A DNA stretch of 56,572 nt from Candidatus Saccharimonadota bacterium (lineage in GTDB: Bacteria; Patescibacteriota; Saccharimonadia; Saccharimonadales; Saccharimonadaceae). The notes beneath the pieces were generated by a model. That model was not told where the DNA came from, ran no database searches, and worked only from the letters and a program-made list of their open reading frames with translations. The stretch spans positions 1-56,572 of the forward strand of contig JAFVCN010000017.1 of NCBI GenBank assembly GCA_017479205.1, written 5' to 3'. Every line of letters begins with the position of its first letter. Position 1 is the first letter of the stretch. Position numbers and translations under genes: made by a program. Positions 48,178 to 48,430 of this stretch are shown here, piece by piece.

Positions 48178-48206
48178 TTGAAATACATTTTATTATTTGT
48201 TATAAT
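48178..48206 (+). promoter_or_regulatory. Promoter of tRNA-Gly
   Basis: TTGAAA (48178-48183), 17 bp, TATAAT (48201-48206). The start falls near 48213, exactly where the duplicated leader segment begins. Confidence 0.82.
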
Positions 48207-48212
48207 ATAGAA

Positions 48213-48306
48213 AGTATACGAGCGTAGCTCAGTTCCTGTCCGAGGGCGTATGCCCGAGTAGATAGAAGACAGAGCGCCTTCTAGGCAACTGAGCAGCGAG
48301 CAGTAT
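48213..48306 (+). other. tRNA-Gly leader carrying a copy of the tRNA 5' half
   Basis: Positions 48213-48234 match 48302-48323 at 21 of 22 bases; that block includes the first 17 bases of the tRNA plus the five before it. The ~68 nt between hold GGGC-GTAT-GCCC, CTGTC/GACAG, GCCT-TCT-AGGC and AACTGAGC, which can pair with GCTCAGTT of either the leader copy or the real tRNA. Confidence 0.6.
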
Positions 48307-48383
48307 GCGAGCGTAGCTCAGTTGTTTAGAGCGCTTCCTTGCCAAGGAAGAGGTCGAGAGTTAGAGTCTCTTCGCTCGCACCA
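48307..48383 (+). tRNA. tRNA-Gly (anticodon GCC) with U19/A56
   Basis: A 77-nt cloverleaf, CCA encoded. Acceptor GCGAGCG/CGCTCGC; anticodon arm CTTCC-TTGCCAA-GGAAG, anticodon GCC; T-stem GAGAG/CTCTT; discriminator A. The D-loop reads AGTTGTTTA, so position 19 is T instead of the near-universal G, and the T-loop reads TTAGAGT, so position 56 is A instead of C. The tertiary pair G19-C56 is thus replaced by U19-A56. All stems are intact, so it looks functional. Confidence 0.93.
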
Positions 48384-48398
48384 TATTAGAGTCACAAT

Positions 48399-48430
48399 AA
48401 GCCCTGTTAAACCCCCCTTTAACAGGGCTT
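48399..48430. terminator. Bidirectional terminator between tRNA-Gly and the GT39-like gene
   Basis: Perfect palindrome AAGCCCTGTTAAA/TTTAACAGGGCTT with a six-C loop. It serves both convergent units. Confidence 0.85.

Follow-up and report, generated by a model that had tools for sequence, protein, structure and literature searches.

The window, by which we mean the whole analysed stretch of 56,572 nucleotides, is contig C27 of a Candidatus Saccharimonadota genome (G000; 738 kb, 90% complete). The features of this locus lie on the forward strand. The gene for tRNA-Gly(GCC), predicted by ARAGORN, occupies positions 48307-48383 and is the sole such gene found in the genome. A 13-bp inverted repeat, probably a terminator, was detected 3′ of it at 48399-48430 by inverted-repeat analysis. 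Upstream, at 48178-48206, there is a sigma-70-like promoter, TTGAAA-17-TATAAT (11/12 matches), whose -10 box ends 6 nt before a 22-nt repeat block. The transcript start is expected about 7 nt downstream of such a promoter and is therefore predicted at about 48213, which is the first base of the block, as the original prediction proposed. The D loop AGTTGTTTAG and the T loop GTTAGAGTC of this tRNA are those of all tRNA-Gly(GCC) examined in the genus. The 19-56 tertiary contact of these tRNAs appears to have changed as a pair from G-C to U-A.

The leader was said to open with a copy of the 5′ part of the tRNA, and this is confirmed: block 48213-48234 is a direct repeat of 48302-48323, identical at 21 of 22 positions with one mismatch, and includes the tRNA 5′ end with its flank. 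Within it, upstream of the tRNA itself, lies a copy of tRNA-Gly positions 1-17 (48218-48234; 16/17 identical to 48307-48323, with the mismatch at position 1). The place of the D loop is occupied by a separate domain, B, at 48235-48272. According to alignment A1 and its pair counts it includes stem P2 (48236-48240/48268-48272) and a tandem G-A (48242-48243 with 48256-48257) flanking stem P3 (48244-48247/48252-48255). Repeat analysis identified AGAGCGC at 48271-48277 as a copy of tRNA 48328-48334, and it provides the first strand of hairpin P4, GCC-TTCTA-GGC (48276-48286), which takes the place of the anticodon arm and has counterparts in other leaders.

The last part is the anti-D strand at 48279-48294, complementary to positions 10-25 of the tRNA (48316-48331) over 16 nt, with 13 Watson-Crick and 3 G-U pairs. 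Its last 8 nt, AACTGAGC (48287-48294), are complementary to GCTCAGTT, which is present both in the leader copy (48227-48234, forming P1) and in the tRNA. The stretch between the repeats thus carries AACTGAGC and hairpins and can pair with either the leader copy or the tRNA D arm, as had been suggested. The antisense score of this leader is 14.5 against its own D arm and at most 9.0 against other tRNA kinds. Folding stability is also unusual: z = -2.98 for the leader and z = -4.17 for leader plus tRNA, with 0 of 200 shuffles equally stable.

How did this arrangement arise? G027, the closest relative sampled (LigA 90% identical), has the same promoter region joined directly to tRNA-Gly, and the tRNA-Gly of G034 is likewise leaderless. 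Therefore 48218-48306, between promoter and tRNA, is an 89-nt insertion in the window, an echo leader missing at the orthologous site of both genomes. Wherever one contig carries both genes, tRNA-Gly lies no more than about 10 kb from ligA, which suggests that the locus is orthologous across genomes. The acceptor stems differ, being GCGAGCG/CGCTCGC in the window and GCGAATG/CATTCGC in G027 and G034, and the leader copy agrees with the tRNA that it precedes.

The original prediction offered three explanations: a switch deciding whether the tRNA folds, a decoy for RNase P, and a target duplication left by insertion of a hairpin element. They were borne out in part. Insertion with duplication is correct as history, given the 89 nt missing in the closest sampled relative and the direct repeats flanking the unit, while the folding switch has gathered the most support. 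The leader might also act as a decoy for RNase P.

The insertion could also be the whole story. The unit would then be a product of a mobile element or of recombination targeting tRNA genes, with domain B as cargo and with the tRNA pieces and antisense strands as duplications made at each event, and no function in tRNA making would be needed. Candidate processes are integrase-like insertion, reverse transcription and template switching at hairpins. A clean 89-nt insertion flanked by near-perfect direct repeats of a tRNA part fits this and resembles the scar of an integrative element in a tRNA gene, and partial tRNA copies from integrated elements are common in prokaryotes (PMC9897764). Against it, such units are only 80-150 nt long and carry no genes; here the insert has 89 nt in total and 67 nt between the repeats, with no integrase gene and no phage or ICE content in that interval. 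None of the 20 matches in viral contigs lies beside a tRNA. We regard this explanation, taken alone, as rather unlikely, and further evidence on both sides is given below.

Among 174 genomes of the genus, with 142 tRNA-Gly loci examined, the 5′ arrangement occurs at tRNA-Gly in five (G000, G094, G119, G115 and G190), where the copies lie 84-89 nt upstream. Four of these five leaders hold an exact 12-14-nt complement of tRNA positions 10-23, and the complement in the window requires G-U pairs. On the LigA tree the five genomes are scattered and adjoin leaderless relatives, a distribution that would mean that the leader was gained repeatedly, that the block was imported whole, or that it was lost many times. 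Such sporadic, scattered occurrence at one syntenic locus is a further point in favour of insertion without function.

The arrangement exceeds chance, for the same design precedes tRNA-Gly in four further genomes of the genus and is found ahead of nine additional tRNA kinds; the search for it in related genomes, proposed at the outset, was thus rewarded. The pattern TAGCTCAGTTN{0,4}TGTNYGAGS, scanned over 84,980 species genomes, returned 55 loci, and 26 of them are at tRNA genes (23 upstream, three in downstream tRNA-like copies). These 26 belong to Saccharibacteria, two Nomurabacteria, one Patescibacteria record and one further bacterium. Pattern matches in other (non-CPR) groups amounted to 27 loci, none with a tRNA downstream. 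A covariance model, R1, was built from 19 leaders. It matches 31 of the 174 genus genomes at E ≤ 0.01, with strong matches in about half of these; the tRNAs concerned differ among genomes. Beyond the genus, strong matches were confined to other members of the family and a single genome elsewhere in the order. The E value of 5.5e-16 for the leader of the window comes from a sequence that is itself in the training set. The contexts of R1 matches contribute leaders of tRNA-Ile and further ones of tRNA-Lys.

In total we compared 33 distinct leaders, nearly all from Saccharibacteria with a few from other Patescibacteria, standing before ten tRNA kinds: Gly, Ala, Val (TAC, GAC), Lys (CTT, TTT), Met, His, Thr (TGT, GGT) and Ile. 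Tandem double units are present at L230 and in G118 and G101, which is also as expected of inserted elements. Some leader matches, a number of them tandem pairs, lie at contig ends (G118:C3:21-205, G101:C5:36-219, G027:C1:65, G008:C41:238, G074:C50:82); repeats may therefore break assemblies, and our counts may be too low.

The leaders have a common order: positions 1-17 of their own tRNA, domain B, positions of about 23-28 of the same tRNA, P4, a linker, and the tRNA, where the 3′ strand of P4 usually extends as the anti-D strand. Each is thus a partial tRNA copy in which domain B replaces the D loop and P4 the anticodon arm. In 27 of the 33 leaders the acceptor copy agrees with the own tRNA at every base. 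Domain B, composed of P2, an internal loop with the invariant tandem G-A, and P3, is common to leaders of different tRNAs. Conservation of the letters of TAGCTCAGTT and TGTNYGAGS is partly by construction, because the search pattern fixed them; the tRNA context, acceptor copy, 3′ CGAG, P3 covariation and antisense strand all lie outside it. The 3′ CGAG is invariant in alignment A1 even so.

Covariation in the leader, another check proposed originally, was found in P3. One of its pairs is G-C in 11 of 19 leaders and C-G in 8, and the covariation score is 0.148 versus 0.072 for shuffled alignments (0/500 as high). P2 is less regular, with 54% of cells paired in the alignment, and P1 is almost invariant. 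Two-sided changes in P3 separate the Ala leaders L238 and L265, and likewise the Lys leaders L286 and L287; the Lys pair comes from sister genomes, and both pairs are apparently inherited. Retention of structure through paired changes in apparently inherited leaders does not suit an element that merely inserts. Two known motifs were compared with these units: the kink-turn gave no clean fit to domain B, and the integron attC sites (RYYYAAC/GTTRRRY) did not fit.

The common anatomy bears also on the simplest alternative, namely that the leader is a decaying tandem duplicate of tRNA-Gly and its complementarity arose by chance. The copied pieces do stand in tRNA order, 1-17 and then 23-28. However, leaders of different tRNAs have domain B in common, and its sequence is not that of a tRNA; the same design occurs in 33 leaders; and decay would not be expected to produce an anti-D strand. 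The original prediction named, as a finding that would speak against it, that a second tRNA-Gly copy had simply decayed; this is contradicted by the shared domain B and by recurrence across tRNA kinds. A decayed tandem tRNA is largely refuted by the comparative data, and we consider it very improbable.

How closely does the antisense strand fit its own tRNA? In 26 of the 33 leaders its match to the own tRNA spans 11-20 nt and takes in D-loop bases that the leader copy lacks. The mean antisense score over all 33 is 13.2 for the own tRNA; for other tRNA kinds it is 9.4, and for shuffles 5.9 (shuffle maximum 11.5). The own score reaches at least 10 in 26 leaders, among which 14 exceed every other tRNA kind and 17 at least equal it; some strands fit other kinds equally well or better. 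In the remaining seven, which belong to Ile and some of the Lys tRNAs, an anti-D strand is barely present or absent.

Because D arms are alike between tRNAs, the clearest signs of specificity are the D-loop bases and locus L248. The strand covers tRNA positions 18-23, absent from the leader copy, and varies there with the tRNA kind (strand/tRNA: CTAGCC/GGCTAG, CTAACC/GGTTAG, CTAAAC/GTTTAG, CTACC/GGTAG). In L248 the tRNA has CAGCTGG and the leader copy CAGTTGA, and the anti-D strand matches the tRNA, not the copy. A crossover between tRNA kinds would not yield an acceptor copy and an antisense strand both fitting the new host tRNA, which is a difficulty for a purely recombinational origin.

Folding was evaluated for leader and tRNA together. 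In nearly all leaders with an anti-D strand the predicted minimum lies 8-22 kcal/mol below a forced cloverleaf plus leader (2.0 in L306, 6.9 in L325), a gap which is overstated because RNAfold takes no account of tertiary contacts, modification or proteins and fails to give a cloverleaf for the tRNA of the window even when that is folded alone. In the predicted minimum of most of these leaders the 3′ acceptor strand of the tRNA is paired with the leader copy, and its D region with the leader. Equilibrium folds of the growing transcript gave a stepwise exchange in all six leaders tested: first pairing within the leader, next a shift onto tRNA nt 16-28, and last the exchange of acceptor strands at around tRNA nt 72-77.

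The conservation of domain B, the strands matched to each tRNA and the folding predictions together favour a cis-acting folding switch, a brake on maturation of the tRNA. It is our best explanation, with a probability of roughly 0.42. The guess of such a switch is supported by two of these observations in particular: the complementary strand follows the D arm of each tRNA, and folding of the precursor predicts strand exchange.

The switch might work as follows. Early in transcription the anti-D strand would be paired within the leader. Once tRNA nt 16-28 are being transcribed, it would shift onto the D arm of the tRNA, and with the appearance of the 3′ end the acceptor copy of the leader, by then free, would pair with the 3′ acceptor strand. 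The strand-swapped form is predicted to have no normal D arm and to direct RNase P to the 5′ end of the leader. A protein, a metabolite or a state of transcription that stabilises the internal fold of the leader through domain B could leave the tRNA free to fold, and the leader would then serve as a brake or as a conditional gate on tRNA maturation. Speaking against the switch, sporadic presence and the scattered tRNA-Gly cases are unusual for conserved regulation; the seven leaders with hardly any anti-D strand, and the strands that suit other tRNA kinds as well or better, also count against it. Sporadic presence, the clean insertion and the tandem units would equally suit a selfish or recombinational origin; origin of this kind and function as a switch need not be mutually exclusive.

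Units of another type were seen on the other side of tRNA genes. At 25 sampled loci (L087-L105 and others) they lie 3′ of tRNA-Gly(GCC), usually past a terminator-like hairpin, and consist of a T-arm complement (AACTCTCG), a short inner stem-loop and a T-arm copy, mostly followed by the acceptor 3′ strand and CCA. Tandem arrays contain as many as three (G072), with a period of about 80-85 nt. Their inner stems pair at 3.04 versus 2.27 for shuffled loops (0/500 as high). The genome of the window has repeats at tRNA-Tyr (L380), tRNA-Asp (L382) and tRNA-Ser(TGA) (L398), where a stretch of 11-18 nt from the 3′ end, CCA included, recurs 56-69 nt downstream, beside strong hairpins. Downstream matches of at least 11 nt to the own tRNA were found for 4 of its 38 tRNAs, versus 0.4% for other tRNAs. 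The loop GGAGCGTCCCAAGGGGCAAACG is common to the units of L104 (G159, Gly) and L382 (G000, Asp). As related partial copies with complementary strands, the units at the 25 tRNA-Gly loci count in favour of an insertion process.

Full-length copies resembling tRNAs also occur on the 3′ side of tRNA-Gly or tRNA-Thr (G022:C9 at L014, G110:C5 at L105, G027:C1 at L008, and L251). They retain the 3′ acceptor strand, T arm and CCA, but their D loop contains domain B and a hairpin replaces their anticodon arm, which suggests a wider group of tRNA mimics. Copies with domain B in G022, G110, G027 and L251 are not explained by a cis switch. Leaders and downstream copies might instead be released as trans-acting mimics, that is tRNA-specific decoys or regulators of RNase P, of modifying or cleaving enzymes, or of toxins. 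Full-length copies 3′ of tRNA-Gly (G022, and G110 twice) and tRNA-Thr (G027, L251) agree with this, and the targeted tRNA varies among species as expected under changing attack. But the complementary strand of the 5′ type pairs with the tRNA of its own transcript, and the 5′ leaders stop at about position 28 and have no T arm; we find release in trans improbable.

The leader in the window is one case of a wider, seemingly undescribed element. Single tRNA genes are not generally known to carry a structured leader imitating the tRNA itself, and our search of the open literature for such leaders found nothing equivalent. In the window region the Rfam matches at E ≤ 5 were limited to the tRNA and a weak one to RsaJ that lies outside the leader; neither the T-box nor the rtT RNA/tyrT repeat model matched there. 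Rfam matched no leader-type RNA at L302 and L304, the latter leader being on the minus strand and perhaps only partly covered. It is possible, and we propose it tentatively, that Patescibacteria possess a class of self-mimicking tRNA leaders in which a shared sensing domain and strand exchange with the nascent tRNA decide the maturation of a single tRNA. If confirmed, this would be an undescribed route to control of tRNA making, and a working switch could allow organisms whose genomes are very small to adjust individual tRNAs through their folding. Should an unknown process insert the units instead, they would represent a tRNA-targeting element of very small size, with flanks that adapt to the tRNA in question.

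Several known systems resemble these leaders in part. The E. coli tyrT operon carries partial copies of the tRNA 3′ end downstream, in the transcribed flank (tyrT repeats, rtT RNA). These are copies of the own tRNA end beside a tRNA gene and resemble the downstream 3′-type units of the genus; they copy the 3′ end downstream, not the 5′ half upstream, and have neither domain B nor an anti-D strand. Riboswitches, T-box leaders and attenuators work in a similar way, by a 5′ leader strand with two alternative partners and by a shared domain combined with a gene-specific strand. Here, however, the regulated product is a tRNA and not an mRNA, there is no antiterminator/terminator pair, and Rfam gives no match in the window region. 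Partial tRNAs of integrative elements (attL/attR, PMC9897764) share with our leaders the direct repeat of a tRNA part around the insertion. Those elements measure about 9-23 kb, whereas the leader unit is shorter than 150 nt and combines a structured RNA motif with a strand that fits the host tRNA. Finally, pairing of a pre-tRNA 5′ leader with the tRNA 3′ end can slow RNase P: pairing of the leader with RCCA is reported to inhibit binding of the bacterial enzyme (PMC9433436), which agrees with the proposed switch. The pairing reported there involves RCCA, whereas our leaders bear a copy of the whole acceptor strand and D-arm region.
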